Shown here: positions 19,269-35,400 of the stretch, piece after piece
Numbering within the stretch: position 1 is the stretch's first letter
How the letters are laid out: every line of letters begins with the position of its first letter
DNA from: Synechococcus sp. Nb3U1
Lineage (GTDB): Bacteria > Cyanobacteriota > Cyanobacteriia > Thermostichales > Thermostichaceae
Direction of reading: 5' to 3'
Length of the DNA: 64,000 nt
Assembly: GCF_021533835.1 (NCBI RefSeq)
Contig: NZ_JAKFYQ010000003.1
Span: 124,001 to 188,000 of the forward strand
Made by a program: the position numbers and the translations under genes
The notes under the pieces: generated by a model
What the model was told of the DNA's origin: nothing
The model's input: the letters and a program-made list of their open reading frames with translations, nothing else
Database searches by the model: none

Positions 19269-19717
19269 GGAAGCACTAGCTTCAGCATAATCGTTTTCGC
19301 GCCCACTTTCTCGAGTGGCTTCTTAATTGAACTTTTGTTAAATCAGACGGACGACTCTTGGGTGGGTTTCCTACAAGAATACCTTTGTCCTTAGGAGATT
19401 GTAGGAGAATGCTCTAGTGATATGCTCTGCTGATATGCTCTGCGTCAGTGATTAGCGTTGCTCTATGGGCCGCTACAGGCGAACGCGCTCGGGTGCCCTT
19501 GGCGTAAAGGACTGTGAATCGTCCTGGCTTGCCAAGATTATCTTTTAGGTTCTGATGTGCAAGTACAAGGCATAATCCTTTAGAAGTTATCGCTATCTCG
19601 GCATAGCTCCATCTTCTCGGGTTAAAGTCAAAGGCGTAGCTTCCAAAACCTGTCTACTGAGCTGTGTCTCCCCAACGTCTGCTGTCCACCTACCCGAATT
19701 GAGGTTAGAGATCAATC
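19269..19717. other. Divergent spacer between kamA-like and parA-like genes
   Basis: About 450 bases without a supportable gene, probably holding both divergent promoters. It contains two adjacent tandem doublets at 19392-19443. I found no tRNA, riboswitch or clear -35/-10 pair. Confidence 0.5.
19392..19443. repeat. Two neighbouring tandem doublets (10 bp and 13 bp)
   Basis: TAGGAGATTG (19392-19401) is followed by TAGGAGAATG (19402-19411). After CTCTAG comes TGATATGCTCTGC twice without mismatch (19418-19430 and 19431-19443). Confidence 0.9.
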
Positions 19718-20473
19718 ATGGCAAAAATTGTCTCCATCCACTCCTATCGAGGTGGGACTGGGAAGTCCAATACAACAGCCAACTTGTCTGCTCAAATCGC
19801 CAAGCAGGGCAAACGAGTGGCTGTCATCGATACGGATATCCAGTCCCCTGGAGTTCACGTGCTCTTTGGACTGGAAGAGGACAAGACAGGCCACACCCTG
19901 AACGATTATCTCTGGGGAAAATGCCGCATCGAAGAAGCTGCCCATGATTTGACCCCCAAGGCCGCCAAAGCAGCAGGAGGCACCCTCTATTTGGTTCCCT
20001 CCAGTGTCAAGGCTAGTGATATCGCCCGTATTCTCCGCGAGGGCTACGACGTCGGTATGCTCAACGATGGCTTCCAGTCCTTGCTCAAGAAGTTAAAGCT
20101 CGACTACCTGTTCATCGATACCCACCCCGGCCTCAACGAAGAAACGCTGCTTTCTATCACTATCTCGGATGTCCTGGTGTTGATCCTGCGCCCAGATCGG
20201 CAAGACTTCCAAGGGACAGCCGTGACGGTGGATGTGGCTCGCCGTCTTGAGGTTCCCAACATGTTGTTGGTGGTGAACAAAGTGCTCACCTCCTTCGATT
20301 TCGCCAAAGTTAAGCAGCAGGTGGAGTCCACCTACAATCTGACGGTGGCTGGAGTGCTTCCCCTTTCAGAAGATATGGTCAAATTGGGCAGTGCTGGCAT
20401 TTTTAGCCTTGAATTTCCCGATCACCAATGGAGCAAGACGATTCAGCAAATCGCCGCCTACATTCTTCGTTAA
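19718..20473 (+). CDS. ParA/MinD-like ATPase at the head of the RiPP island
   Basis: This P-loop ATPase of 251 residues resembles MinD/ParA. The Walker A is SYRGGTGKS: the second Lys (GK) is present, but the signature Lys of the deviant Walker A motif is Arg. Walker A' is VAVIDTDIQSPGVH and the switch region is YLFIDTHPGLNEETLL. Such ATPases place protein complexes on membranes or DNA. Its location directly before the export genes suggests a role in locating the exporter, which is inference. The ATG follows TTAGAGATCA, a weak ribosome binding site. Confidence 0.88.
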   Translation: MAKIVSIHSYRGGTGKSNTTANLSAQIAKQGKRVAVIDTDIQSPGVHVLFGLEEDKTGHTLNDYLWGKCRIEEAAHDLTPKAAKAAGGTLYLVPSSVKASDIARILREGYDVGMLNDGFQSLLKKLKLDYLFIDTHPGLNEETLLSITISDVLVLILRPDRQDFQGTAVTVDVARRLEVPNMLLVVNKVLTSFDFAKVKQQVESTYNLTVAGVLPLSEDMVKLGSAGIFSLEFPDHQWSKTIQQIAAYILR

Positions 20474-20489
20474 TTTGCATGGCCAATTG

Positions 20490-20535
20490 GGATCCCAGTT
20501 CACCCTCAGTCTGTCTGGGATCCAAGTCTTTCTTC
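20490..20535. terminator. Possible bidirectional terminator
   Basis: GGATCCCAG (20490-20498) and CTGGGATCC (20515-20523) form a nine-base-pair stem with a 16-base loop, followed by the T-rich AAGTCTTTCTTCTTC. It stands between the convergent parA-like and tolC-like genes. Confidence 0.5.
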
Positions 20536-20656
20536 TTCATTAAATCTTGATTTTGTTGCTTGTTTGTGAAGGTGTCCCGCGTCCAATGGTGTCCAAAGAT
20601 CGGTGCAGGGGGATCCTTATTTGGAGCTTCAATGGACTATCCGATGGCACAAACGC

Positions 20657-20705
20657 TATGAATGAAGGTTATGAATGATGAAAAAAGGTAAATCAAGTAA
20701 ATTAA
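20657..20705. repeat. Two tandem doublets (13 bp and 9 bp)
   Basis: TATGAATGAAGGT / TATGAATGATGAA (20657-20682) and GTAAATCAA / GTAAATTAA (20688-20705) lie at the 3' end of the tolC-like gene, the second reaching its stop codon. Confidence 0.7.
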
Positions 20706-22375
20706 GGAGTCGGTGCGGGAGTGTCCTCCAGTTCCCCAGATAAGGTGCTGGTGGCTCGTTGTATTCGGGCAAGGGCGCGGTTGTAGCCAAGAATCGCCTG
20801 TACCAGGCTGCTATTGGCTTCCGTCAGTCGGGATTCCGCATTCAGCACATCCAACTGGGTGCCTAAACCAGCCTGGAAGCGCAATCGGGCAATGCGCAGA
20901 GCCTCTTGGGTTTGCTCTAGAGTAAGAGAGGCAGTGGCGATGTTGCGCTCGTTCACATCCAGCTCCACAAAGGCTTGCTCCACCTCCAGGCGAATTTGGG
21001 CAGCCAAATCTGCCACCTGCAAGGCCGAAGAATTGGCGGTGGCCTGTTGTTGCTCTACCTGAGCTCGTGTACGCCCCCCGTCGGAAAAGGTCCACAGAGC
21101 ATCCAGTTGCAAAGAGTACCCGGCACCCAAACCTTCAACACGGCTGGCGGGGCGCGGATCGTCGGTGTAGAGCTGCACCAAGTTGACATTCCCAGAAACG
21201 CTCACCTGAGGTAGCAAATTGGCTAAAGCTGCCCGCCCTTGAGCTTGGCTAATCAATCTCTGCAGCCGTTGTTGCTCCAGCTCGGGTCGATTCTGCAGAG
21301 CACGAACAATACTTTCCTCCAAACTCAGCTCCCACTTGCCAGCCTGTTCAGCCTCTGCTGAGGTGCGGATGCTGGTATCTGGCGGCAAGTTCAGCAGACG
21401 GGCCAAAGCACGAGGGGCGATCGCTTGGGTTCCTCGGGCTTGGGCCAGACGCAAATTGGCGTTCTCCAACTGAATTTGGGCGTTGAGCACATCCAGGCGG
21501 GTGGCCAAACTGGCTCTCAGCAGTGCTTCTGCATCTTGCAAGCTACGACTGGCCTCACGGACAGCCGCCTCTTGGATCACCACCTGTTGATCGGCTTCCT
21601 GCAGGTTGTAATAGGCATCGATCACCTCCAGGCGCAACTGTTGCAGGGCATTTTGCAGCTCCAGCTCACTGACTCGCAGTTGAGACTCTGCCGCTTCTAC
21701 CAGCGCATCCCGTCGCCCCCCGGCATAGAGGGTTTGGTTGATGGTGATCAAGGCATTCAGGCTGAGGGTACCGTAGTTTTGGGTGCCGCCGATGCTATCC
21801 GGCAGGGATTCCGCCTCTCCCAATCGCTGTTGCAGTTGTTGAGACACGGAGAAAATCTGTAGCTGCTGCTGGATCAGTTCCACCGGATCAGTTGGCAAAG
21901 GCAACGCCTGCAAACGGGATAGCTCGGCAGTAAGCAGGGGAATGGCCGCCTCGCTGTTGCGCAGTTGTTGTTCTAACTGTTGCCTACTGATCGTGGTCTG
22001 GACATCTCCGGTGGCTGAAATGGAACGGTTGGCGGACAACTGCAGGTTCAGGGTCGGATTGAATTCCGCCTGGGCAGCGCGCAGAGCAGCTCGACTGCTA
22101 TCAATCTGGGTTAGAGCCAGTTGTAGCCGCAGACTATTGGCTTCCGCGAGAGCCAGCGCCTCCTCCAAGCTCAGAGTCAGCACTTCCCGGATCTGGACTG
22201 CTTCCACCCGCGAAGGCAACTCGGGTATCTCGATCTCTGCCTCAGGGGAAAGTTCCGCTGCTGTCGGGATCCCTTGCCCGGCAGACATCATGGCGGATCC
22301 CAACCAAGCCGCCAAACCGAGCACAAGAACACGGATTCGAGACAGAGGAGAAAACGACATCGGAAGCAGGCTCAT
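20702..22375 (-). CDS. TolC-like outer-membrane efflux protein
   Basis: This is a type I secretion outer-membrane channel of the TolC/OEP family. After a signal peptide (VLVLGLAAWLGSAMMSAGQ) come two OEP repeats with long coiled coils: the first from about LTLSLEEALALAEANSLRLQLAL and the second from ESIVRALQNRPELEQQRLQ. It ends with a short Pro/Thr tail. It is transcribed opposite to the HlyD-ABC-LanM genes but lies among them, so it is the natural outer-membrane partner for that exporter. The first ATG (22375) was taken; a TTG lies seven codons upstream. Confidence 0.9.
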   Translation of the reverse strand: MSLLPMSFSPLSRIRVLVLGLAAWLGSAMMSAGQGIPTAAELSPEAEIEIPELPSRVEAVQIREVLTLSLEEALALAEANSLRLQLALTQIDSSRAALRAAQAEFNPTLNLQLSANRSISATGDVQTTISRQQLEQQLRNSEAAIPLLTAELSRLQALPLPTDPVELIQQQLQIFSVSQQLQQRLGEAESLPDSIGGTQNYGTLSLNALITINQTLYAGGRRDALVEAAESQLRVSELELQNALQQLRLEVIDAYYNLQEADQQVVIQEAAVREASRSLQDAEALLRASLATRLDVLNAQIQLENANLRLAQARGTQAIAPRALARLLNLPPDTSIRTSAEAEQAGKWELSLEESIVRALQNRPELEQQRLQRLISQAQGRAALANLLPQVSVSGNVNLVQLYTDDPRPASRVEGLGAGYSLQLDALWTFSDGGRTRAQVEQQQATANSSALQVADLAAQIRLEVEQAFVELDVNERNIATASLTLEQTQEALRIARLRFQAGLGTQLDVLNAESRLTEANSSLVQAILGYNRALARIQRATSTLSGELEDTPAPTP

Positions 22376-22764
22376 AGAGGGGAACCGCAGGAACAACCCA
22401 GCTTAATATGCCGAGTTCACTTAGCCAATACAGGGGATCCGAGCCCGAGACCGTTACAGAAATTATTACTTCATTGCTTTATAAAGGTCAGGCAAAGAAA
22501 CAAAGAAAGAAGAAAGCCCCATGAAGAAGAAAATGACTAGACAGTCCAGTCTTCCCAGCCATAGGGCATCATCTAGCAAGCTCAAAATCAGTCAAGAACA
22601 TAAGGAGTGTTAAGCTGCTCGAATCCTATCTATGAAGTTGCATAATAGACTCAACTTGCCACGGCGAACTCACGCTTTTGAGTCTACCGACTTTTGTATG
22701 GTTTGGGTTATGAGCTTTAGAGATTATCTAACGCTATAATCTGTTCGATCCCAGGGATTTGGGT
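22376..22764. other. Divergent regulatory spacer before the export genes
   Basis: Nearly 390 bases, AT-richer than the genes around it. It should hold the promoters of the tolC-like gene and of the HExxH gene. Small open frames here (38 residues or fewer) do not look like RiPP precursors: none has a double-Gly leader or a Cys/Ser/Thr-rich end. Confidence 0.5.
22712..22740 (+). promoter_or_regulatory. Candidate sigma-70 promoter of the export operon
   Basis: A perfect TATAAT stands at 22735-22740, about 24 bases before the ATG of the HExxH gene. The -35 region is poor. Transcription would start near 22747, leaving a short leader. Confidence 0.5.
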
Positions 22765-23964
22765 ATGGATGTCGATTCCTTTCGCGCTGATGTTCATCGC
22801 TTCTTCGGGGCCAGTCAAGCGGCATCAGATCAGTTGCTAGCCTACGGTCAGAATGCCTTTGCCCAACCTCCTTCGCCCCAAAACTGGGACATTTCCCCAG
22901 AACCGCATATAGCCGCTTGGCAAGCGTATCAGGCGGAAACCTTGGGGCAAGGGGTTTTTCCTGTGCTGCAACAAAAACTCGTACAGTTACGCTTTCCTAT
23001 TCAGCTGGGTATTTCCGAAGCAGACTCCTACCGAGCGGCAACCCGGCGTGGCATCTCCGTCGAGGGCATGGCAGAGGCAACTGGACTACACCTCGAACAT
23101 CCGGAGGGCTTACAGTTGCAAATTCATCCCAGTTTGGCGGGGCCAATCCCGGTGCTGATTCCGGCATGTCGGGAGGATTTTGTGACTTTGGTGCGGGCTC
23201 TAACGATGCGCAATGAGCCCAAGCCTGTGCCCGATTCCATGGGGGCTTGTATTGTGGCGGGTTTTAACAATTGGGATCGAGTGGGCACCTATCGGCAGTA
23301 TTGGCAAGCACAACACCCCGAGTTAAATCCGGAACGAGATTGGGCAGCGGAATTCCAGCGGCTCATTCCCCGCAAAGAGTTATACCAGGATCGGTTTATT
23401 CTGCTGAGCTTAGGGCCCTACAGCAATGTATCGGCCTCTCAGTTGGATCTAGGCGAAAAAGAGTGGTTAGACTTCTCCCTAACCGTGCGCCTAGAGCACG
23501 AATCCACCCACTACTTAACGCGGCGGTTGCTGGGATCCATGCGCAACAACGTCTTGGATGAGCTGATTGCCGATTATCGCGGCATTGTTTCTGTTCTGGG
23601 CCATTTTCGAGCCGATTGGTTCCTACACTTTGTTGGCCTGGAAAATTACCCCTACTACCGCGAAGGGGGCAGGTTGCAAAACTATCGCGGTCAACCTCCC
23701 CTTTCCGATGAGGCTTTTCAGGTTTTGCAAGCGATGGTCAAAGCAGCTGCTGAGCACCTGGAAGCCTTTGATCGCCAGCAGGCAGAGTCTCTGAGTAGCG
23801 CTGCTGCTCAAATTCGGCTGATTCTGGCCTTAACAGCCTTAAGCTTGGAAGCACTGGCCTGTACAGAAGCTCGAGATCACTTGCAGCAAGCTTGGGATCG
23901 CACGCCAGAAATTCCTTCTCCCGACAGTGGCCCGCAGCTCGTGGGTTCTTTCTCGTCGGGGTGA
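22765..23964 (+). CDS. HExxH (zinc metallopeptidase-like) protein of the RiPP island
   Basis: I do not recognise a named family. The roughly 399-residue soluble protein has HESTH at residues 245-249 in a helical context (LEHESTHYLTRRLLG) and, 17 residues after the second His, the acidic block LDELIADYRG with Glu 266. That arrangement resembles zinc metallopeptidases of the gluzincin type. No signal peptide is seen, so it would act in the cytoplasm. It is the first gene of the run leading to the exporter and LanM. A role in leader-peptide removal or peptide trimming is a guess from position. Start: ATG at 22765, with AGGG about ten bases upstream. Confidence 0.7.
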   Translation: MDVDSFRADVHRFFGASQAASDQLLAYGQNAFAQPPSPQNWDISPEPHIAAWQAYQAETLGQGVFPVLQQKLVQLRFPIQLGISEADSYRAATRRGISVEGMAEATGLHLEHPEGLQLQIHPSLAGPIPVLIPACREDFVTLVRALTMRNEPKPVPDSMGACIVAGFNNWDRVGTYRQYWQAQHPELNPERDWAAEFQRLIPRKELYQDRFILLSLGPYSNVSASQLDLGEKEWLDFSLTVRLEHESTHYLTRRLLGSMRNNVLDELIADYRGIVSVLGHFRADWFLHFVGLENYPYYREGGRLQNYRGQPPLSDEAFQVLQAMVKAAAEHLEAFDRQQAESLSSAAAQIRLILALTALSLEALACTEARDHLQQAWDRTPEIPSPDSGPQLVGSFSSG

Positions 23965-24046
23965 TCCCAAAGATTCGCCGATTCAATTGCTTCTTTTTTG
24001 CGTTCTCATTTGGTGCTGGTAGACAAACACGCTGGAGTTCTTGCCC

Positions 24047-25159
24047 ATGTCAGACATTCTCCTGCAAGAGATGAGCAACAGCGACATCGACTGGATGCTA
24101 AACGCTGGTCACAAGCTGGATCTGATACCCGATGGGATCCTGTTTCGGCAAGGCAGCCAGCTCGACCACGTCTACCTGCTGTTGGAGGGCAGCCTTAGCT
24201 TGCGATTGGCCATTGCTCAGTCGGGCCGCAGGGCACTGAACCGCGCCTTTGCCGCTCTGGGGGGAGAAGAAGACACCGGCAAAGAGGTGGGACGACTGGG
24301 CAACGGGGAGGTAACCGGCGAAAGCGTCCTCTACAAAAAAGATCTGCCCACTCCGGTAACGGTACAGGCAATCACCCGCTCCTCGTTGTTGGCTTTGCCC
24401 TTGACGATGCTGCGTCCCAAATTGGCGGATGTGGGCTTTGGATCCCGCTTCTATCGCATGGTGGCCTTGATGTTGGCTAGCCGCATTGAAGCCATTGCCG
24501 GGCAAATGGGCCGGAATATCGGGCGCATCGCCGCTGATCAGCCCCAGTTGCGAGAGGTGCTGTCGGTGTTTGGGGAGTTGCACGATAGCGATATCGACTG
24601 GATGATCGCCGCTGGAGAAACGCGGGTATTGCCCCCGGGGGGAGTGCTCATCCAAGCTTTTCGCCCCGTCGATGCCCTGTACATTTTAATCAAGGGATCC
24701 CTCTCGGTATCCGTCAGTGAAGACGAAGGTAACGCCCTTAACCGAGCTTTTTCCGCATTGGGAGCAACCTCCACAACCCCAACCCGCGAGATCGATTGTC
24801 TGGCCAAGGGGCAAATGGTGGGGGAAATGGCCTTTTTGGAGGGACGTCCTTCGGCAGTCACCATCGCTGCCAAGGAAGAATCCTTTGTCTTGACGCTGCC
24901 TCGCCAGCAGTTGGCGGCCAAGTTGCAGTTGGATCTAGACTTTGCCGTGCGCTTCTACCGGGTGCTCGGGTTGCTGTTGCTGGATCGCTTCCAAGGCACG
25001 ATCAACCGCGTCGGGTTGGGCCGCCGCACCTACAGTGGCGATCAGCCCCTGGACAGTCGGTTTGAAGATGAGCTGGAGACCGAAGATTTGGATCAGCTCA
25101 GTTTGGCAGGTACCCGCTTTGACTGGATGGTGAAGCGGCTGCTGCAAACGCTGTCTTAA
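24047..25159 (+). CDS. Double cyclic-nucleotide-binding-fold protein
   Basis: The protein of about 370 residues has two cNMP-binding (CAP-like) folds in tandem, at about 10-160 and 180-330, each with LIPDGILFRQGSQLDHVYLLLEGSLSL-type strands. Each half begins with SDIDWM, so it arose by duplication. In the phosphate-binding cassettes the Arg that grips the cyclic phosphate is missing: GESVLYKKDLPTPVTV and GEMAFLEGRPSAVTI. It may thus bind something else or act as a scaffold. The second ABC exporter downstream has its own similar N-terminal region, as is known for NHLM-type exporters. Start: ATG at 24047 rather than a TTG two codons earlier. Confidence 0.85.
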   Translation: MSDILLQEMSNSDIDWMLNAGHKLDLIPDGILFRQGSQLDHVYLLLEGSLSLRLAIAQSGRRALNRAFAALGGEEDTGKEVGRLGNGEVTGESVLYKKDLPTPVTVQAITRSSLLALPLTMLRPKLADVGFGSRFYRMVALMLASRIEAIAGQMGRNIGRIAADQPQLREVLSVFGELHDSDIDWMIAAGETRVLPPGGVLIQAFRPVDALYILIKGSLSVSVSEDEGNALNRAFSALGATSTTPTREIDCLAKGQMVGEMAFLEGRPSAVTIAAKEESFVLTLPRQQLAAKLQLDLDFAVRFYRVLGLLLLDRFQGTINRVGLGRRTYSGDQPLDSRFEDELETEDLDQLSLAGTRFDWMVKRLLQTLS

Positions 25160-25204
25160 CAGGATCCCTTGAATCCTACTCGCTATCGGTTGGAGGTGTC
25201 GGGC

Positions 25205-26644
25205 ATGGCAGATAACAATACCGGGTTATTCCGCAAAGAATCCTTAGAGCGGCTTTCCTCGCCGGAGCAATTGGATCAGTTGCTACAGGTGGTCAACCCA
25301 CGGGATTGGTTGCCGTTGGGCTGCTTGGCGGCTCTGGTGGGGGCTGGTCTGGTGTGGAGCATTTTTGGGCGGATCCCGCTCACCGTCAGTGGCCAGGGGG
25401 TGTTGGTTTATCCCAGCCGGTTAATACCCGTACAGGCCACCAGCGCAGGTTCGATTCTGCAGCTCAATGCCCAAGTGGGGGATCGCTTAGAGGCAGGGCA
25501 GGTATTGGCGGTGCTCGACCAAGCTGAACTGCAAAAGCGCCTAGACGAAGCCCGCAATGAACTGGAAAAGTTGCGTACCCAAAACCAAACCCTGACCGAC
25601 CTGGAAAATCAGCGCCTGGATTTAGAACTGCGCAATTTGCAGGCGCAGCGGCAGAACCTCGCCCTGAGCATTGCCGAAGCCCAAGAAGCCATTCCGGTCT
25701 TGCGCGACAAAGGGATTGCCGCCACCGAAGAGCAGCAGCGCAATCTGGAACAACGCTTGGTAGAAGCCCAACAGCAGGTACCCGTTTTGCTGGAGCGACT
25801 GGAGCAGCGCCGCCGTCTCTTAGAAGATCAGGTAGTGACGGGAGATGTGGTGCTCAGTGCCGAGCAAGAATACCTGGCGGGGGTAGCCCGCATTTCCGAT
25901 ATTCAAGCCCAACTCAAACAAATCGAAGCCAGCTTGGCGGAGGCAGAGCGCAACTATCTGAGCAACCTACGCCAATTGGATAGCACCCGCATTGAGCTGC
26001 AGAGCCTCGACAGCCGCGAAAATACCCTACGACAGCAAACCCTAGAAGCTCGGCTAGCCCGCCAAAACCAAATTGAGCAGCAGCAGAGCACCATTGCCCA
26101 GTTGGAGTTACAACTCCTGACCCAAAGCCAGATTCGCGTCGAACATACGGGGGTAGTTACCGAGTTGACGGTGATCCCCGGTCAGGTGGTGGGCACGGGA
26201 CAACGCCTTGGCACCCTGGAGGTGGAAGACGAAGATAGTCCTCTGATCGCCATCAACTCCTTTTCGGTGGGGGATGGCAAGCGCATTCAACCGGGCATGC
26301 CGATTCAGGTGACACCGGTTTCAGTGCGTCGGGAAGAATTTGGCGGCATCTTGGGGCAAGTCACGCAAGTCTCCAATCTGCCGGTTTCTCAGGATGAGGC
26401 ATTGCGGTTGGTGGGCAATGAAGGCTTGGTGCGGGCGTTGGTGAGTGACTCCCCCACCATTCAGGTCTACGCCAACTTAGATTTGGATCCGAATACGGTC
26501 AGTGGCTACCGCTGGTCTTCGTCCTTGGGGCCACCCGTGCAAATTACGGCCGGAACCACCACTCTCACCCGCGTCACCATCGGGGAGCGAGCTCCCATCA
26601 CCTTTGTCATGCCGTTCTTGAGGGATATCACGGGTGTCTATTAA
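25205..26644 (+). CDS. HlyD-type periplasmic adaptor (NHLM secretion family)
   Basis: This membrane-fusion protein would join the inner-membrane ABC exporter to the TolC-like channel. It has one N-terminal span (LPLGCLAALVGAGLVWSIFG), a biotinyl-lipoyl-like half-domain (GSILQLNAQVGDRLEAGQVLAVLD), a long coiled coil (about 115-300) and the beta-barrel end. The length and order fit the adaptor of NHLM bacteriocin systems. The chosen ATG at 25205 has GGAGGT eight bases upstream. Its end overlaps the start of the C39 exporter gene by 11 bases. Confidence 0.92.
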   Translation: MADNNTGLFRKESLERLSSPEQLDQLLQVVNPRDWLPLGCLAALVGAGLVWSIFGRIPLTVSGQGVLVYPSRLIPVQATSAGSILQLNAQVGDRLEAGQVLAVLDQAELQKRLDEARNELEKLRTQNQTLTDLENQRLDLELRNLQAQRQNLALSIAEAQEAIPVLRDKGIAATEEQQRNLEQRLVEAQQQVPVLLERLEQRRRLLEDQVVTGDVVLSAEQEYLAGVARISDIQAQLKQIEASLAEAERNYLSNLRQLDSTRIELQSLDSRENTLRQQTLEARLARQNQIEQQQSTIAQLELQLLTQSQIRVEHTGVVTELTVIPGQVVGTGQRLGTLEVEDEDSPLIAINSFSVGDGKRIQPGMPIQVTPVSVRREEFGGILGQVTQVSNLPVSQDEALRLVGNEGLVRALVSDSPTIQVYANLDLDPNTVSGYRWSSSLGPPVQITAGTTTLTRVTIGERAPITFVMPFLRDITGVY

Positions 26645-28889
26645 CTTCATCAATCCCCTACTGCGGCGACCGCCTTCTCGTGTCAAAACCCCCACCTTGC
26701 TGCAGATGGAGGCGGTGGAATGTGGTGCAGCGGCTCTAGGTATCATCATGGGCTACTACCGCCGCATCGTCCCCTTGCCAGAGTTGCGTCGGGAATGTGG
26801 GGTATCGCGAGACGGTAGTAAAGCCTCCAACGTACTGAAGGCGGCCCGTCGCTACCAAATGGAGGCCAAAGGTTTCAAAAAGGATCTGGACGGCCTTAAG
26901 GAGATTCCGGTACCTTACATCGTCTTCTGGAACTTCAACCACTTCCTGGTGGTGGAGGGAATGACGCCGCAGTGGGTTTATCTGAACGATCCGGCCTCGG
27001 GTAAACGGCGGGTGAGCTGGCGAGAATTCGATGAAGGCTACACGGGTGTAGTTTTGGTCATCCGCCCTGGCCCCGATTTCAAGCGGGCCGGTCGCAAACC
27101 CAGTGTGATTGGCTCCTTGCAAAAGCGCTTACAGGGATCCTACGGCGCGTTGACTTACTGTCTGTTGGCGGGCTTCCTGCTGACGATGGTGGGTTTGGTG
27201 GTGCCGGTCTTCAACCAAATCTTTGTCGATTCGATTCTGATTCAGGGGCGACAAAATTGGCTGCGGCCCCTGCTGCTGGTGATGGTGGTAACCACCCTGT
27301 TGCAGGCGGTGATCCTGCAGGTGCAGCAGCGATATTTGCGACGGCTTCGTCTCAAGCTCTCCATTGGCATGTCCAGCCAGTTTCTCTGGCACATTTTGCG
27401 CTTGCCCATGAGCTTCTATGCCCAGCGTTACTCTGGGGAAATTGCCAACCGCCTTAGCCTCAACGATCAGGTGGCGGGCGCTCTCTCCGGGCAGTTGGCC
27501 ACCAGTGTGATCAATGCGGCCATGGTGATTTTCTATGCTTTGGTCATGCTGCAGTACGACCCGGTGCTGACGGCGATCGGGATTTTCTTCGCCTTGGTCA
27601 ATGTTTTTAGTTTGCAGTGGGTGGCCCAGAAACGGGTGGATGGCAACCTACGTCTGTCCCAAGAACAGGGGAAATTGTTCGGGACGGCCATCTCCGGCCT
27701 CTACAGTATGGAAACCCTGAAGGCCTCCGGTTTGGAATCAGATTTCTTCGGGCGGTGGTCGGGCTACTACGCCAAGATGGTGAACGCCCAACAGGCTTTG
27801 GCTATCACCAACCAAAACTTAGGGGTTTTGCCCTCTTTGCTCACCTCCCTCACCTCGATGTTGATCCTGGTGGTGGGCGGGTTCCGCGTCATGGGGGGTA
27901 GCCTCAGCATTGGGATGTTGGTGGCCTTCCAAACCCTGATGCAGAGCTTCCTGTCGCCGGTGAACGAGCTGGTGGGGTTCGGGAGCTTGCTGCAAGATCT
28001 GGAGGGCAACCTGAATCGGCTAGACGATGTGTTGCAAAACCCCACCGATTCGCAACTGCCCAAAGCTCCGCCCCCCTCTGTTCAACCCGCCACCCCGACG
28101 ACCGTCAAGCTCCAGGGCTATTTGGAACTGCGGAACATCAGCTTTGGCTACAGCCATGTGGATCCCCCATTGATCGAAGGGTTTAATCTCAAGGTGAATC
28201 CCGGCCAGCGGGTAGCACTGGTGGGGGGGAGTGGCTCGGGAAAATCCACCATGGCTAAGGTGGTCTCCGGCCTTTACGAGGCTTGGGGAGGGGAGGTGCT
28301 ATTCGATGGGATCCCACGTGAGCAGTGGCCCCGCTCCGTGATCACCAACTCCATGGCCATCGTTGAGCAGGAAATTCTCCTCTTTAGCGGCAGCGTAAGG
28401 GATAACCTCACCCTTTGGGATGCCACCATCCCGCAGGCCAACTTGATTCAAGCCTGTCAGGATGCCGTCATCCATGATGTCATCCTCTCCATGCCGGGGG
28501 GGTACGGGGCAGACCTGCTGGAAGGGGCGACCAACCTCAGCGGTGGACAGCGGCAACGGCTGGAAATTGCCCGCGCTCTGGTGAACAACCCGACGATCCT
28601 GATTTTGGACGAAGCCACCAGCGCTCTCGATGCAGAAACAGAAAAGATCATCGACCAGAACCTGCGCCGGCGCGGCTGTACCTGTTTGATCGTGGCCCAC
28701 CGCCTCAGCACCATCCGGGATTGCGATGAGATCATCGTCCTGGAGCGGGGCAAAGTGGTGCAGCGGGGCACCCACCAAGAACTCTGGGAACAGGGTGGCT
28801 ATTACGCCCGCCTGCTGCAAAGCGAAGAGGAAGAAAACGAAGACAGTTCAGAAGGTGGTGAGTCCGACTCCGCACAAGGGGAGGCTTGA
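26634..28889 (+). CDS. C39-peptidase ABC exporter (NHLM ABC1)
   Basis: This 751-residue exporter cuts the leader after a double-Gly site and pumps the peptide out. The N-terminal C39 domain has its triad at Cys30 (EAVECGAAAL), His103 (FNHFLVVEG) and Asp119 (NDPASGKR). Six membrane helices follow, then the ATPase with Walker A GGSGSGKS, signature LSGGQRQR and Walker B ILILDEATSALD. It starts at GTG with GAGGG upstream inside the adaptor gene and overlaps the end of that gene. Its presence implies a precursor with a GG-type leader somewhere in the genome. Confidence 0.94.
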   Translation: MSINFINPLLRRPPSRVKTPTLLQMEAVECGAAALGIIMGYYRRIVPLPELRRECGVSRDGSKASNVLKAARRYQMEAKGFKKDLDGLKEIPVPYIVFWNFNHFLVVEGMTPQWVYLNDPASGKRRVSWREFDEGYTGVVLVIRPGPDFKRAGRKPSVIGSLQKRLQGSYGALTYCLLAGFLLTMVGLVVPVFNQIFVDSILIQGRQNWLRPLLLVMVVTTLLQAVILQVQQRYLRRLRLKLSIGMSSQFLWHILRLPMSFYAQRYSGEIANRLSLNDQVAGALSGQLATSVINAAMVIFYALVMLQYDPVLTAIGIFFALVNVFSLQWVAQKRVDGNLRLSQEQGKLFGTAISGLYSMETLKASGLESDFFGRWSGYYAKMVNAQQALAITNQNLGVLPSLLTSLTSMLILVVGGFRVMGGSLSIGMLVAFQTLMQSFLSPVNELVGFGSLLQDLEGNLNRLDDVLQNPTDSQLPKAPPPSVQPATPTTVKLQGYLELRNISFGYSHVDPPLIEGFNLKVNPGQRVALVGGSGSGKSTMAKVVSGLYEAWGGEVLFDGIPREQWPRSVITNSMAIVEQEILLFSGSVRDNLTLWDATIPQANLIQACQDAVIHDVILSMPGGYGADLLEGATNLSGGQRQRLEIARALVNNPTILILDEATSALDAETEKIIDQNLRRRGCTCLIVAHRLSTIRDCDEIIVLERGKVVQRGTHQELWEQGGYYARLLQSEEEENEDSSEGGESDSAQGEA

Positions 28890-28891
28890 GT

Positions 28892-31810
28892 ATGTTGGCT
28901 ATCGATCGCATCCAAACCCTAAAGGGATCCCTCAAAGTGGTGCGGGGCAACCGCCCCCTGCTCTTGGAGCAGGGGATCTGGATTCTACAGTCGGGGGGCT
29001 TGGCGGTATTTGCCGTGCGCCGAGAGGGCGGGGCCCTACAGGGAATGCGCCGTTATCTATTTACGGTACAAGCGGGTACGGTAATGATGGCCTTTCGCCC
29101 GGAGGAGACCGCTTCCTCCAACGGGGTCGAGGTCAAACCCGATTCCGATTATGGTCTGCTGGCTGTCGCTCTAGAAGAATCGGAAGTGTTGCAACTAGAA
29201 CCCGAGGAATGGGATCCCTTTTTGGCGACTGAGAGCGGCCATGAGGGGGTGGTGGACTGGATCGGCAAACTGGGATCCTCCTTTCACGCCCCTTTGCCCA
29301 GCCGGGTTCCGAAACCTGCGGCCACCGCCAACGTCTCGTTATTGGAGCAGGAAACCTTTCAGCCCACCACACCGGTTTGGGTGGAGCTGCGGGCCGGGCA
29401 AGTGCAGCTGTTGGGTCTACCGGAAATGGCCTTGCCCACCATGGGCCAAGTTTTGCCGGTTTCGGAACATTTGTGGCTGTTGGCCACCGAACCCAGCCAA
29501 GTGCGCCAAGAGGGCACCGCCAGCCTCTCGCCGGGTCAAATCCGGGGTGGCATTCAAACGTTGCTAGAACACCTCTACACCTATCTGAAGCTGCGGGAGC
29601 AAGAGCAACTCCAGGTGGAGGTCGCCCAATATCAAGCCCGCGAACAACTGAACCAACAGACGGCAGCCAATGCCTTGGGGGGCTTGGCAGGGGTGCTCAA
29701 CCCTCGGCGCACCGAGGTACTCGCCCAGGGTGCGCCGGTGCTGATCGCCGCTCAGGCGGTGGGGAACATGATGGGGGCAGAAATCTCCCCTCCAGCCCGC
29801 TCCGAGGATCTGACACGGGTGAAAGATCCGATTGAAGCGATCACCCGCGCCTCCCGGTTGCGTTTTCGCCGGGTATTGCTGCGGGCCAACTGGTGGAAAC
29901 AAGATAACGGCCCTCTCTTGGCCTACACCGAAGTGGAGAACTGTCCTGTCGCCCTTCTACCCAAGGGGGCTGGCCAGTATGAGCTGTTCGACCCGGAGAC
30001 CCAAACCCGGAAACCAATGAACGCCAAACTGGCAGAAACCCTGACCCCTGTGGCCTATATGTTCTATCGCCCGCTGCCCCAACAGGCGGACAAAGCTTTG
30101 AACCTGTTGCGCCATGTGATGCGGGGCCGCTATCGGGATCTGTTGATTGTGGTCAGTTTGGCCATCGGCGGTACCCTGTTGGGGATGCTGACACCGCAGG
30201 CAACGGCGATTTTGATGGATACCGCCATTCCCGACAGTAACCGCTCCTTGCTGCTGCAATTGGGGATGGGTCTTTTGGCTGCAGCCTTGGGATCCGCCAT
30301 TTTCGAGCTATCGCAAGGGATCCTGATCACTCGCCTGGAAACCGGTACTGAAACCGATATGCAAACGGGGCTTTGGGATCGTCTGCTGACGCTACCCACC
30401 GCCTTCTTTCGTCGCTACTCAATTGGGGATTTGGTGGGGCGGGTCTCGGCGGTACAACAAATCCGCCAGCAAATCGGGGCAACCACAATGCGCAGCATCC
30501 TCTCCAGCATTTTTGCCCTACTGAACCTGGCGCTGCTGTTCACCTACAGCGTCACCCTCACCTGGGTGGCCTTGGGAGTGGCGCTGGTTTCCATTTTGGT
30601 GACGACGGCCTCCGGGATCCTGCTGTTGCGGCAAAATCAGCCCTTGCTGGAGTTGAGTGGCGAACTGAATGGCTTGATGGTGCAGCTGATCGACGGTGTG
30701 TCAAAGCTGCGGGTAGCGGGAGCAGAACAACGGGCCTTCGCCCATTGGGCCAAAGGGTACCAAGAGCAAGTGCGCCGGACGGTGAATATCCAGCTCATCG
30801 AAGGGGCGGTACAAACCGTGAACCAGTTGATCCCGACGGTGACTTCCATTTTGCTCTTTTGGTTTGCGGTGGGGCTGATTCAGAGGGCACAAGCCCAAGG
30901 GGGGGTGGGGCTGACGGCAGGAACCTTCCTGGCTTTTAATTCTGCTTTTGGCACCTTTATGGGGGGGATGACCGACCTGAGCAACACCATCACCACCAGC
31001 TTGGATGTGGTGCAACTGTGGCGACGGGCCAAGGTGATTCTGGAAGAGAAGCCAGAAGTGGATCCGAGCAAGGCCGATCCGGGACGACTGAGCGGCGGTA
31101 TTTTGCTCGATCACATCACCTTCCGCTACCGCGAGGATGGCCCTCTCACCCTGGAAGATCTGACGGTACGCGCTGACCCGGGGGAGTTTATCGCCTTGGT
31201 TGGCCCCTCCGGCAGTGGCAAATCCACGGTGTTTCGCCTGCTGTTGGGCTTTGATATGCCTCTGTCGGGCACCGTCTATTTCGATGGCCAGGACTTGGCC
31301 GGGTTGGATGTGGCGGCGGTGCGGAAGCAGATTGGGGTGGTGCTGCAAAACAGCCGCATTATGTCCGGCTCCATCTTTGACAACATTGCGGCTGGCGCTC
31401 TGGTCACCCTGGATGAAGCCTGGGAAGCAGCTCGCATGGCCGGTTTTGCCGAGGATGTGGAATCGATGCCCATGGGAATGCACACGGTGATCAGTGAAGG
31501 GGGGGGCAACCTCTCCGGCGGCCAACGGCAGCGGCTGATCATCGCCCGTGCCCTGGTGTTGCGGCCCAAGATCCTCTTGTTTGATGAGGCCACCAGCGCC
31601 CTCGATAACCGCACGCAAGCGATCGTCAGCGCCAGTGTGGATCGTCTGCGGGCCACCCGGATCGTCATTGCCCACCGGCTCAGCACCATTCGCAACGCCG
31701 ATCGCATTTATGTGATCGAGGCTGGGCGGGTGGTGCAGCAGGGCAGCTTCGACAAACTCAGCCAGGAACCGGGCTTGTTCGCGGAGTTGATGGCTCGACA
31801 GACGGCTTAA
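28892..31810 (+). CDS. Second ABC exporter with cNMP-fold N terminus (NHLM ABC2)
   Basis: This 970-residue exporter has no C39 peptidase. Its first 260 or so residues resemble the cyclic-nucleotide-like N-terminal region typical of the second ABC protein of NHLM systems, followed by a linker, six membrane helices (from about 410) and an ATPase with GPSGSGKS, LSGGQRQR and LLFDEATSALD. It probably pairs with the upstream exporter as a heterodimer. The ATG at 28892 follows AGGGGAGG at seven bases; the upstream gene ends at 28889, so they nearly touch. Confidence 0.93.
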   Translation: MLAIDRIQTLKGSLKVVRGNRPLLLEQGIWILQSGGLAVFAVRREGGALQGMRRYLFTVQAGTVMMAFRPEETASSNGVEVKPDSDYGLLAVALEESEVLQLEPEEWDPFLATESGHEGVVDWIGKLGSSFHAPLPSRVPKPAATANVSLLEQETFQPTTPVWVELRAGQVQLLGLPEMALPTMGQVLPVSEHLWLLATEPSQVRQEGTASLSPGQIRGGIQTLLEHLYTYLKLREQEQLQVEVAQYQAREQLNQQTAANALGGLAGVLNPRRTEVLAQGAPVLIAAQAVGNMMGAEISPPARSEDLTRVKDPIEAITRASRLRFRRVLLRANWWKQDNGPLLAYTEVENCPVALLPKGAGQYELFDPETQTRKPMNAKLAETLTPVAYMFYRPLPQQADKALNLLRHVMRGRYRDLLIVVSLAIGGTLLGMLTPQATAILMDTAIPDSNRSLLLQLGMGLLAAALGSAIFELSQGILITRLETGTETDMQTGLWDRLLTLPTAFFRRYSIGDLVGRVSAVQQIRQQIGATTMRSILSSIFALLNLALLFTYSVTLTWVALGVALVSILVTTASGILLLRQNQPLLELSGELNGLMVQLIDGVSKLRVAGAEQRAFAHWAKGYQEQVRRTVNIQLIEGAVQTVNQLIPTVTSILLFWFAVGLIQRAQAQGGVGLTAGTFLAFNSAFGTFMGGMTDLSNTITTSLDVVQLWRRAKVILEEKPEVDPSKADPGRLSGGILLDHITFRYREDGPLTLEDLTVRADPGEFIALVGPSGSGKSTVFRLLLGFDMPLSGTVYFDGQDLAGLDVAAVRKQIGVVLQNSRIMSGSIFDNIAAGALVTLDEAWEAARMAGFAEDVESMPMGMHTVISEGGGNLSGGQRQRLIIARALVLRPKILLFDEATSALDNRTQAIVSASVDRLRATRIVIAHRLSTIRNADRIYVIEAGRVVQQGSFDKLSQEPGLFAELMARQTA

Positions 31811-31834
31811 CCTGGGTCTTGTCTGGAGGCTCAA

Positions 31835-31858
31835 GATTTTCTCAAAGATTTTCTCAAA
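31835..31858. repeat. Perfect 12-bp tandem doublet before lanM
   Basis: GATTTTCTCAAA occurs twice in a row (31835-31846, 31847-31858) and is followed by the partial copy GATCTTC. It lies in the short spacer between the second ABC gene and lanM. Confidence 0.9.
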
Positions 31859-31869
31859 GATCTTCATGG

Positions 31870-34310
31870 CCTCGGGATCCCTTCCCCTTAGCGGTATGCA
31901 CAAATGCTCGTGGAATCGGTGACCGCGTTGACGGTGATGCAAACGATCCTGTATCGCTCCGAATCGCTCCTGGAACGGCGGCGCAGGCTGAGGATCCCTT
32001 CCGGGCCAGAGATCGCCCACGCAGAGGATCCCACGGCTTTGCACTGGGGGGATCCGGTGGCAGAGGCTCGGCTCCAGGCCTGGCAACAGGCGGCTGCCAA
32101 AGGGGATGCTGATAAATGGGCACGCCGATTGGCCTGGGATGGGATTACAACTGAGCAGTTGCGCCAGTGGTTGAGCCATCCTGAACCCTGGGGGATCCCG
32201 CCTGAGCCATGGCCCCCCTGGGCCCTCCTGCTCCAGCAGGTTTTGCAGATGGCCCCAACTCTTGATCCCCAAGCCTACGGCTATCTGGATCCCGAGCAAC
32301 CCTTGCCCTTTGAGCCCTTTTTTCAGCCTTTTTTGCAGGTGGCTCGGCAGGCATTGGGCCAGCGGATCCCAAATCCTCCTCTTGAAGAAACCGCCCGACG
32401 AACCTTGGAGTGGAGCTTGGTGGAATATCTGAGCGAACTGGCCACTCCCACCCTGTTAGGAGCCTTTCGAGACTGGCGTTCCGGCGGGGATCCGATGCGG
32501 GCTTTCCTGCGCCGGCACCTGAAAAAACGGGAGGGATCCCCCTCTCAAGAGCAATACTGGGCTTTTTTGCGGAGTTGGTGTGGAGAAAACCTAACCCATC
32601 AACTGCAGGAGTACAGCGTGTTGGGACGGGTGTTGGCTACAGCCACTTGGCACTGGGTGGAAGCCACCGCCGAGTTTTTACAGCATTTGCAGGCCGATTG
32701 GCCCCTTTTGGAGCAAACCTACGCCCAGCCGGGATCCCTGCACTTGGTAACGAGGGTGAAACCGGGACTGTCGGATCCGCATCAGCAGGGGCGACGGGTG
32801 ATCGGCCTCAGCTTCGAGAATGGGCTGCAGTTGGTGTATAAACCCAAAAGTTTGGCCCTGGAGGTGGCCTTTGCCCGGCTGTTGAGTTGGATAGGGGAGC
32901 GAGCCGGGGAATCTTTGCTGCCGCTCAAGGCTCCGGTGACATTGGATCGACACACCCATGGTTGGGTGGAGTTTATGGCGGCTTTGCCCTGTGCGGATGG
33001 GGAAGCGGCAGGTCGCTATTTCCGTCGCTCCGGGATGTTGCTGGCGCTGGTGCATTTGCTGGAGGGCACCGATTGCCACTTCGAGAACCTGATCGCCTAT
33101 GGAGAACACCCCATCTTGGTGGATGGCGAAGCCCTCTTTCACCAACGGCCCCGCCCCCAGGGATCCGGATCCCTGCCCCCTCTCAATGCTCTGCAAAAAG
33201 CAGCTCGCCTTTTGGCAGATTCGGTCTTGCGCACGGTGATCTTGCCCCACTGGGGATCCGCCCCCAACCAACAGTGGGATGTGGATCTGGGGGGATTGGG
33301 GGGATCCGAGCAACAAGTGATGCAAGTCTCCACCTGGAAACACTTGAACACCGATGAGATGGAGATCGGCATCGATGCGGTTTCCATGACCCTCAGCGAT
33401 TCACCCTCCCATTTGGCGGGGGAACCGACCGTTTTGAACCCTGCTCCAGAGTCAGTCCAGGCCCCACGCTCCCTTCTGTCTGCCAACGATTACTTAGAGG
33501 ATCTGATCACGGGCTACCGGGAAATGGGCCAATTTGTGATCGACCATCGGGAGGCGTTGCTGGCAGCAGATGGCCCGATCGAAGCGATGCGCCATTCCCA
33601 GTCCCGCTATATTTTCCGCTCCACCCGCATCTACGCCGTCATTCAGGAGCAGTCCCTGAATCCTAAGTTGATGAAATGGGGCCTTGATCGCAGCCTGGCC
33701 CTGGAATCCCTCAGTCGCGCCTATCTGCTGGGAACCGAAAAGCCTCGACATTGGCCGCTGTTGGCCGCAGAATTGGCCGCGATGGAAATTCTCGATATTC
33801 CCTGTTTTTTGGCGGATTGCCAGCGGGATGAGCTGGTTCTTGATCCCATTCATGCAGGAGATCCGCCCAGCACGATTCCCGACTTTTTTGAGGGATCCAG
33901 TTTTGAACGGGCTAGGCAAAACCTGCTGGTGTTCGATGCCTCTGCCCTGGAGCACCAAGCCGACATCATTCGACGAACCCTGTACGGACGCTATTGGGTG
34001 GAACCTCCATACGCACCCGGAGGTGGGCCAGAGGGGACATCACCGCAGGTGTTGATTCCCATTCCCAGCTCCAGCCCCCCTGAAGCAGACAAGTTCCCAG
34101 AACAGCTCCGGCAAGAGGCGATTCGCTTGGGGCAGCGGTTGCGCTCACAGGCGATTGTGGGGGAGGAAGGCAGCTTAGGCTGGCTGGGCATTGTGCCCCG
34201 CCCTTCTTTACAGGAGTTTTTGTTGCGGGAATTGCCGCTGGGGTTGAGCGATGGCTTGGTGGGCATAGCCCTATTTTTTGCCGCCTTGGCCCGCGTCACC
34301 GGGGATCCCC
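31870..34310. repeat. Dense GGATCC palindromes (example stretch)
   Basis: I counted 17 copies of GGATCC by eye in this 2.4-kb stretch, most of them as GGGATCC or GGGATCCC. About 0.6 would be expected at equal base frequencies. The same palindrome is scattered over the whole window, within genes and in spacers. Confidence 0.9.
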
Positions 34311-35353
34311 TCTGGACAGAGACCACCCTTGCGACGTTGAAACTGCCCCGACAGGCCCTGCAGGAAATTCAAGCCCATCCCAGCCACGGCCTTGAGCGTT
34401 CGCGCCAGCGGGCCGGAGTCCTTTTGGGGTTGAGCGGGGCAAGTGGGATCCCTTCCATCACCTATGGTCTGGCCTGCTGTGGAGAATGGTTGGCCGAGCC
34501 TATGTTGCTAGAGGAAGCCTTGGCCCCACTGCCAGTGATCCAGCTAGCCTGGGAACAGGGAGCGGGGATCCCAGGAACTATTGATGTGATGCAGGGTAGT
34601 GCCGGCACCCTATTGGCCCTATTGGGACTGTGGGAACGGGTGCAGCCGCAGGCTCAGGAGCGCGTTTTGCAGTTGGCACAGGCGTGTGGGTCTCACATTC
34701 AGGCCAGTTACGCCGCCAGCCAAAGGGGAGCTGTAACCCAGTCGCTGACCGGATTCGCCCAAGGGGCCGCCGGGATCGCCTACAGTCTGGTGCGTTTGTT
34801 TCGGGTGACCCAACAGCCTGTTTGGCTGGAGCTGGCGGAGGCCTTTTGCCAGGAGGAACGGCAATACTTTGATCCTGAACACAGAAATTGGCTGGATTTA
34901 CGCAGCGCCCACCCCTCGACAGGAGCTTCTGATACCCCCCGGTTTGGCCTCAGTTGGGCCCAAGGGGCAGCGGGGATTGGGTTGGCTCGGTTGGCGAGTC
35001 TGCCGGAGTACGACACCCCCCTCTGTCGTCAGGAGATCGAGATCGCCCTAGCGACCACCCGTGCTGCTGGGCTGTGGGGCATCGATAGCTTGTATTGGGG
35101 TAATCTTGGCCGGTTGGAATTGTGGATTAGCGCTGCTCAACAGCTCGGTCAACCCAGTCTTCTGGTGGAGGCCCAAGCAGCTGCCCTCCATCGGGTTCAA
35201 CAGACAACCGAGTCTGGCTCCTACACCTTGTTTGCAGGACGGGCCCAGCAAATTGACAATCCGCCCCTTTTCCATGGGTGGGCGGGCATTGGGTATCAAC
35301 TGCTGCGGCTGGCAGATCCCAACGGGATTCCGGCGGTGCTGCTGTGGGGATAA
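31904..35353 (+). CDS. lanM: LanM-type lanthipeptide synthetase with degenerate cyclase half
   Basis: The 1149-residue enzyme has the class II layout. In the dehydratase half (about 100-700) the kinase-like site is complete: Lys313 (LVYKPK), Asp390/His392/Asn395 (DCHFEN) and Asp407 (ILVDGE), plus FRSTRIYAVI. It should phosphorylate and dehydrate Ser/Thr. The C-terminal LanC-like half (about 760-1149) keeps the fold motifs (DVMQGSAGT, NWLDLR, GWAGIGYQLLRL). Yet the three catalytic motifs are altered: the expected HG is AQG (951-954), WCHG is WAQG (1018-1021) and CHG is YWG (1064-1066). No Zn ligand remains. The gene ends the export run; no precursor gene adjoins it. Confidence 0.92.
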   Translation: MLVESVTALTVMQTILYRSESLLERRRRLRIPSGPEIAHAEDPTALHWGDPVAEARLQAWQQAAAKGDADKWARRLAWDGITTEQLRQWLSHPEPWGIPPEPWPPWALLLQQVLQMAPTLDPQAYGYLDPEQPLPFEPFFQPFLQVARQALGQRIPNPPLEETARRTLEWSLVEYLSELATPTLLGAFRDWRSGGDPMRAFLRRHLKKREGSPSQEQYWAFLRSWCGENLTHQLQEYSVLGRVLATATWHWVEATAEFLQHLQADWPLLEQTYAQPGSLHLVTRVKPGLSDPHQQGRRVIGLSFENGLQLVYKPKSLALEVAFARLLSWIGERAGESLLPLKAPVTLDRHTHGWVEFMAALPCADGEAAGRYFRRSGMLLALVHLLEGTDCHFENLIAYGEHPILVDGEALFHQRPRPQGSGSLPPLNALQKAARLLADSVLRTVILPHWGSAPNQQWDVDLGGLGGSEQQVMQVSTWKHLNTDEMEIGIDAVSMTLSDSPSHLAGEPTVLNPAPESVQAPRSLLSANDYLEDLITGYREMGQFVIDHREALLAADGPIEAMRHSQSRYIFRSTRIYAVIQEQSLNPKLMKWGLDRSLALESLSRAYLLGTEKPRHWPLLAAELAAMEILDIPCFLADCQRDELVLDPIHAGDPPSTIPDFFEGSSFERARQNLLVFDASALEHQADIIRRTLYGRYWVEPPYAPGGGPEGTSPQVLIPIPSSSPPEADKFPEQLRQEAIRLGQRLRSQAIVGEEGSLGWLGIVPRPSLQEFLLRELPLGLSDGLVGIALFFAALARVTGDPLWTETTLATLKLPRQALQEIQAHPSHGLERSRQRAGVLLGLSGASGIPSITYGLACCGEWLAEPMLLEEALAPLPVIQLAWEQGAGIPGTIDVMQGSAGTLLALLGLWERVQPQAQERVLQLAQACGSHIQASYAASQRGAVTQSLTGFAQGAAGIAYSLVRLFRVTQQPVWLELAEAFCQEERQYFDPEHRNWLDLRSAHPSTGASDTPRFGLSWAQGAAGIGLARLASLPEYDTPLCRQEIEIALATTRAAGLWGIDSLYWGNLGRLELWISAAQQLGQPSLLVEAQAAALHRVQQTTESGSYTLFAGRAQQIDNPPLFHGWAGIGYQLLRLADPNGIPAVLLWG

Positions 35354-35400
35354 GGGGCATTGTCTATACTCAAGCCATTAATTCCCAAGGACTGTCAAGG

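Follow-up and report, generated by a model that had tools for sequence, protein, structure and literature searches.

We analysed a window of 64,000 nucleotides from Synechococcus sp. Nb3U1 (positions 124,001 to 188,000 of contig NZ_JAKFYQ010000003.1), focusing on a gene for a LanM-family protein, in which a class II dehydratase is joined to a LanC-like cyclase half. The protein, read from the translation of the open reading frame at 31904-35353 on the forward strand, comprises 1149 aa. It matched TIGR03897 with 690.6 bits (cut-off 304) as a full-length class II LanM, and Pfam placed DUF4135 at residues 237-636 and LANC_like at residues 777-1147 (144 bits). An earlier, sequence-only reading had assigned it to 34190-35353, an interval that covers the LanC-like half (residues 763-1149) but not the whole gene, which starts at 31904; the residues and motifs it named all sit where it placed them in the protein. 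The gene and its diagnostic sites were as follows.

31904..35353, forward strand: LanM-family protein, class II dehydratase joined to a LanC-like half that lacks the zinc ligands (TIGR03897, DUF4135, LANC_like)
32840..33625, forward strand: dehydratase catalytic residues K313, D390, H392, N395, D407, R568 and T574, retained (by position; invariant in the alignment)
34754..34765, forward strand: FAQG (951-954) replacing FSHG, catalytic His to Gln (alignment)
34955..34966, forward strand: WAQG (1018-1021) replacing WCHG, first zinc ligand Cys to Ala and His to Gln (alignment)
35093..35101, forward strand: YWG (1064-1066) replacing CCG/CHG, second ligand to Tyr and third to Trp (alignment)

Loss of the cyclase zinc site

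The protein belongs to the LanM family by sequence and carries the dehydratase active site, including the elimination residues R568 and T574 (Arg and Thr six apart). In an alignment of 124 cyanobacterial LanMs, the columns of the catalytic His, the first Cys, the adjacent His and the third ligand were all substituted in the window LanM, so that the zinc ligands and catalytic His of a functional LanM cyclase are replaced (FAQG/WAQG/YWG), as the sequence-only reading had claimed. No alternative Cys/His set that could rebuild the site was found among the Cys positions of the LanC-like half (858/859, 928, 982 and 1041), which answers the concern that shifted motifs might restore it; C928 is the sole conserved Cys of this half, and zinc-intact relatives carry it too. 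The motifs DVMQGSAGT (at 894) and GWAGIGYQLL (at 1125) are present, and an AlphaFold2 model of the half (mean predicted local distance difference test, pLDDT, 88.9) predicted an intact fold, whose closest solved structure was the class II enzyme LicM2 (Z 38, root-mean-square deviation 2.6 Å, 345 residues). The domain aligned with zinc-intact class II LanMs at about 37-41%. A class III ancestry for this half was rejected, as TIGR03897 spans the domain and LicM2 is the best structural match. No second cyclase was found in the genome, where LANC_like matched the window LanM only.

LanM homologues were detected in 51 of 390 cyanobacterial genomes, and their alignment falls into two groups, one with FSHG/WCHG/CCG and one with replacements of Q, A and W type. 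We built the LanM tree from dehydratase-half columns only; the zinc trait was therefore excluded from its input. The window LanM fell inside a 16-row cyanobacterial clade whose members are all zinc-less (SH-aLRT 95) and all carry Trp at position 1065. The loss is common to 12 genomes of this clade and is therefore not a matter of chance. The full tree requires five changes of the zinc trait, at least three of them forced by well-supported branches. The other conserved cyclase positions of the clade largely match those of zinc-intact proteins, and the cyclase-half dN/dS was 0.11-0.24 in clade pairs, the same range as in the dehydratase half and in zinc-intact LanMs; it was measured on relatives of the window LanM, which itself has no close enough relative. 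The cyclase half of the clade members is thus under ordinary purifying selection. Together with the age of the clade and the Cys loss in the likely substrates described below, this upholds the earlier claim of selection rather than decay.

Zinc sites that are incomplete (YCC, SSC, SDC) were also seen in LanMs outside the clade of the window LanM, at loci L071 (3485-6859 and 12726-16004) and L059 (11653-15006), where the LanMs adjoin arrays of Cys-free NHLP-leader precursors.

Zinc status and precursor cysteine

We compared zinc status with precursor Cys in 77 LanMs with precursors, drawn from two locus sets and reduced at 90% identity; cores were cut automatically after a GG-like motif, and a few may be mis-cut. 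All 57 zinc-intact LanMs were accompanied by Cys-rich precursors, with Cys in 100 of 101 cores and a Lys-Trp (KW) end in none. Zinc-deficient LanMs had Cys-poor precursors in 15 of 20 cases; Cys occurred in 8 of their 63 cores, at most once in each, and 35 of the 63 ended in KW. The association was strong (Fisher p 4e-12), a value inflated by shared ancestry, the tree offering two to four independent contrasts only. The contrasts on well-supported branches agreed with the covariation, and the zinc-site losses outside the clade (the second LanM of L059, L071 and L076) also went with Cys-free cores. Judged from these loci, the loss of the cyclase zinc site tracks the loss of Cys in the likely substrates. 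Precursors of KW type were present in all 12 genomes with a W-type zinc-less LanM, mostly adjoining LanM in genomes other than that of the window, and the clade cores are richer in Thr than in Ser.

For zinc-less LanMs from Coleofasciculus and from cyanobacteria of Nostoc type (L117 46-405, L118 8316-9518, L119 8832-9627 and L120 202-564), the precursors contain exactly one Cys, close to where the core begins (FCTP or a like motif). They possibly represent an intermediate stage.

Precursors, tailoring genes and the proposed pathway

In the genome of the window (G000), LanM lies on contig C3 and the precursors lie on C1 and C2. A profile search found no Nif11 or NHLP leader peptide on C3, and hence none in the window; the Nif11-leader peptides map to C1:341-343 kb and C2:778-779 kb, outside the seven genes around LanM within which Walker et al. 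look for precursors. Four proteins of the genome matched TIGR03798, with a leader ending in GG, above the cut-off, and no further Nif11 or NHLP precursor did so. The five cores after GG are EAVIATAVIATISTIASAVIPLTPQIKIPKPKW, EAVIATAIISAISTIASAAIPLTPQIKIPKPKW, FLFPIPGFPGFPGGGGGLPFPLPKIPKPKW, EMLVATALTVGLATALGSAISIAIAPKVKW and EVKVSLTIAIVSATVGATASVVTGWVPKPPKPKW. They are mostly hydrophobic with a KW end, four of the five contain Ser or Thr, and none contains the Cys expected in substrates of a functional LanM; they are paired here with the window LanM as its likely substrates. The genes of the KW precursors lie at L016 6411-6785, 6997-7593 and 7985-8311 and at L017 6140-6481. A Nif11-like peptide at C1:1589633, below the family cut-off and with a tail ending in WWGDDYGC, is the sole Cys-containing candidate of the genome. 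Broken Nif11 precursors, one a leader without a core (L016 7575-7805, G000) and one a leader fused to unrelated sequence (L228 9600-9971, sister genome G005), are signs of array turnover.

Several genes recurred near zinc-less LanMs, namely those for a metallo-β-lactamase (MBL)-fold protein (MBL1), a 2-oxoglutarate (2OG)-Fe(II) oxygenase, an FkbM methyltransferase, a 616-aa family, a zinc-type medium-chain dehydrogenase/reductase (MDR) enzyme, a second MBL protein (MBL2) and a JmjC_2 protein. Within the fetched stretches of 18 zinc-less loci, MBL1 was found at 10, the 616-aa family at 9 and the LtnJ-type reductase at 8; none of the three was found at any of the 78 zinc-intact loci. Across the 390 genomes, zinc-less W-type LanM, KW precursors, MBL1 and the 616-aa family coincided (Fisher about 1e-20). 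MBL1 adjoins the precursors on C1 in the window genome, where an operon at C1:962.9-970.5 kb holds the 2OG, 616-family, reductase, MBL2 and JmjC genes. The reductase (L268 11673-12785) matched, near end-to-end (34% over 348 aa, 2e-60), the gene next after a DUF4135 (LanM-type) gene on pMRC01; by the order of the cluster we take this gene to be ltnJ of lacticin 3147. Matches to ordinary MDR enzymes were far weaker (no better than 1e-14 among those listed), and by homology the protein qualifies as a LanJA-type dehydroalanine reductase of an npn-type pathway.

The 616-aa family (about 600-650 aa; L268 9799-11676, with relatives at L122 9147-10928, L119 19042-20877 and L121 7343-9163) had no Pfam, NCBIfam or PDB match, and a structure model from three sequences reached a pLDDT of 39. 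It occurred in 11 of the 390 genomes, all 11 with a zinc-less LanM.

These data suggest that the window protein is probably a LanM that only dehydrates, within a pathway whose genes are dispersed over the genome and whose products would be linear peptides, both reduced and oxidised. The enzyme would phosphorylate Ser and Thr and eliminate the phosphate in Nif11-leader precursors, the likely substrates being the KW-tailed, Cys-free peptides from the two other loci. Its LanC-like half would bind no zinc and activate no thiol, and may be retained for the structure of the dehydratase or for handling its substrate. The LtnJ-like reductase, encoded at a further locus, would probably turn dehydroalanine (Dha) and dehydrobutyrine (Dhb) into D-Ala and D-aminobutyrate (D-Abu), the MBL-fold, 2OG-Fe(II) and JmjC proteins may add further changes, and the C39-ABC/HlyD/TolC module would cut the leader after GG and export a linear, mostly hydrophobic peptide. 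The sequence-only reading had likewise proposed dehydration without ring closure by the enzyme itself, which the Cys loss in the likely substrates and the old zinc-less clade support. Its suggestion that thioether rings might close spontaneously or through another protein found no support, because the cores are Cys-free and the genome encodes no other LanC-like protein. The linear dehydropeptide that it named as one possible product calls for refinement: the genome encodes an LtnJ-like reductase and oxygenases, which accompany zinc-less LanMs elsewhere, so the peptide is probably modified beyond dehydration.

Several observations weigh against this pathway. The genome encodes the precursors, the reductase and LanM at loci apart from one another, so their pairing is inferred from leader type and co-occurrence. 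One core of the genome, FLFPIPGFPG...KW, has neither Ser nor Thr and is therefore not dehydratable, and a sixth Nif11-like peptide (L018 4580-4957, at C1:1589633) contains one Cys and no KW. Single-Cys cores accompany five LanMs of the clade, and in a two-trait tree test two of two independent pairs agreed (p 0.5), too few for significance. Class III LanKCs form rings without zinc ligands, and zinc loss alone is therefore no proof of lost cyclisation. In the sister genome G005, LanM, the NHLM transporter, the reductase and the 616-family gene were not found, whereas MBL1 and nearly identical KW precursors were kept (L227 9216-10285, contig C16). Two KW precursors of G005 are intact, and one core differs by a single residue from one of the window genome, the pair showing 12 synonymous and 1 non-synonymous change in 33 codons. 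Either the remainder of the pathway was lost recently in G005, or the draft has a gap, or the peptides have a LanM-independent role.

Such a role would follow if the KW peptides were matured by MBL1 and oxygenases and LanM served another, undetected precursor. MBL1 adjoins the precursors in both G000 and G005, and the core without Ser and Thr fits this account, but all 12 genomes with a W-type zinc-less LanM hold such precursors, elsewhere mostly beside LanM, and G000 has no other Nif11 or NHLP precursor above the cut-off; we give the idea little credence. Ring closure by the LanC-like half with a non-Cys nucleophile is similarly improbable, although 35 of 46 clade cores have a Lys directly before their terminal Trp and the pocket is remodelled around one fixed residue, W1065, rather than degraded. 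The conserved C-terminal Lys in the KW tail, or else an amine of the backbone, would then add to Dha without zinc, giving lysinoalanine or a similar bridge, and lysinoalanine is proposed for the peptide of Pseudanabaena galeata (PMC11356792). The KW tail, however, also occurs on the Ser/Thr-free core and persists in G005, where LanM was not found, which argues for a tail role independent of dehydration, and the LtnJ-like reductase would consume the acceptor.

An end product in the form of linear Dha/Dhb dehydropeptides, with the reductase acting on another substrate or on some cores only, is doubtful but deserves more weight. The reductase was not seen within the fetched stretch at the zinc-less loci L048, L065, L118 and L119, and NpnJA is described as reducing Dha only (PMC12328550), so that Dhb may remain in the clade cores, which hold more Thr than Ser; against this, the reductase is encoded at eight zinc-less and no zinc-intact loci, and also in the window genome. 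That the LanM is decaying or pseudogenised and heading for loss is scarcely credible. No homologue was found in five genus sisters, and G005 lost or never had the operon, but the 1149-codon frame is intact, all dehydratase residues are kept, the companion genes are intact, and similar replacements persist under purifying selection over a broad clade; decay of this copy was rejected on that clade-wide conservation. Beyond the window protein, we tentatively consider that the zinc-less clade might be the dehydratase of a distinct, widespread cyanobacterial family of ribosomally synthesised and post-translationally modified peptides (RiPPs), whose hydrophobic KW peptides would be dehydrated, reduced to D-residues and oxidised by a conserved group of MBL, 2OG, JmjC and 616-family proteins into linear, membrane-active products, with the onetime cyclase pocket and its fixed Trp reused for holding the substrate.

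Known systems and surroundings of the gene

A LanM whose Nif11-leader precursors are scattered over a cyanobacterial genome is known from ProcM and the prochlorosins; ProcM-type systems retain the zinc site and core Cys, unlike the window LanM and its likely cores. The npn cluster of 2015 reportedly provides a functional precedent for a linear D-Ala peptide. It shares with the system described here a Cys-free prepeptide, a LanM dehydratase and a LanJA-type reductase, a likeness drawn irrespective of the zinc status of its LanM and of its precursor tail. LtnJ and NpnJA are described as converting Dha to D-Ala, with a Cys-free npn prepeptide (PMC5808125), and the reaction of NpnJA is also reported in PMC12328550.

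P. galeata CCNP1313 encodes a zinc-less LanM-like protein and a Cys-free Nif11 precursor on plasmid pPg_03 (NZ_CP112877), as the RiPP section of PMC11356792 (2024) describes. We placed this LanM (L058, genome G157) in the clade of the window LanM, with zinc ligands replaced by Ala, Met and Trp. Its Cys-free KW core and transport module resemble those of the window genome, but its genes are clustered, and the two LanMs are about 35% identical. The RiPP section of that paper is silent on the adjacent reductase, MBL, 2OG and 616-family genes and on a clade-wide rule; the paper cites LctM zinc-ligand mutants that still dehydrate. CcaM (LanMbC) of the dehydrazoles also combines a DUF4135 dehydratase with a zinc-less cyclase-like domain and makes no lanthionine: it dehydrates only, and needs the domain to do so (PMC10676384). 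Its cyclase domain is of class III type and it requires YcaO-made azoles, whereas the window LanM has a class II domain that acquired its replacements among cyanobacterial LanMs. Cyanotins (class II precursor family II 26), named by Walker et al. in 2020 and in part Cys-free (PMC7268733), share the Nif11 leader, cyanobacterial host, LanM neighbours and some Cys-free cores, but form a mixed group defined by precursors near LanM, from which those of the window genome lie far. Haft et al. expected that Cys-free NHLPs would presumably remain dehydrated (PMC2887384). With P. galeata, cyanotins, NHLPs, npn and CcaM as precedents, the kind is already known, from the single cases of P. galeata (2024) and npn (2015). 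The open-licence papers searched contained no report of the clade-wide rule, the pairing with mostly Cys-free KW peptides, the fixed Trp or the tailoring set.

The clade amounts to a natural experiment: one half of a bifunctional enzyme has disappeared along with the substrate residue that matches it, which raises the testable question of what role a cyclase fold has once cyclisation is impossible. If the proposed pathway is correct, linear peptides that contain D-amino acids and carry additional oxidative modifications would be made by a ribosomal route, and peptide engineering would gain a leader-guided dehydratase that is unable to close rings.

Upstream of LanM on the same strand lie the genes for the TIGR03896 protein, the HlyD-like protein, the C39-ABC transporter and a second NHLP ABC (ATP-binding cassette) transporter, with TolC, DUF7005 and ParA-like genes farther out. 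No YcaO cyclodehydratase was present among the annotated genes from 17970 to 38582, the part of the genome searched for it.

28886..31810, forward strand: NHLP-type export ABC transporter, permease/ATPase subunit (ABC2; TIGR03797, 986 bits)
26634..28889, forward strand: NHLP-type export ABC transporter with C39 peptidase (ABC1), predicted GG cleavage and export (TIGR03796, 1165 bits; Peptidase_C39)
25169..26644, forward strand: NHLP system HlyD-like secretion protein (TIGR03794, 362 bits)
24041..25159, forward strand: bacteriocin-transport-associated cyclic-nucleotide-binding protein (TIGR03896, 267 bits)
22759..23964, forward strand: DUF7005 protein, repeatedly found by transport modules of zinc-less LanMs (PF22541, recurrence)
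20702..22396, reverse strand: TolC-family outer-membrane efflux protein (PF02321, recurrence)
19718..20473, forward strand: MinD/ParA-like ATPase, recurrent in the transport module (annotation, recurrence)

Relative to G005, in which the flanks lie on separate contigs (left to about 17936, right from 35401) and the intervening stretch was not found, the LanM and transport stretch (window 18000-35400) forms an island.

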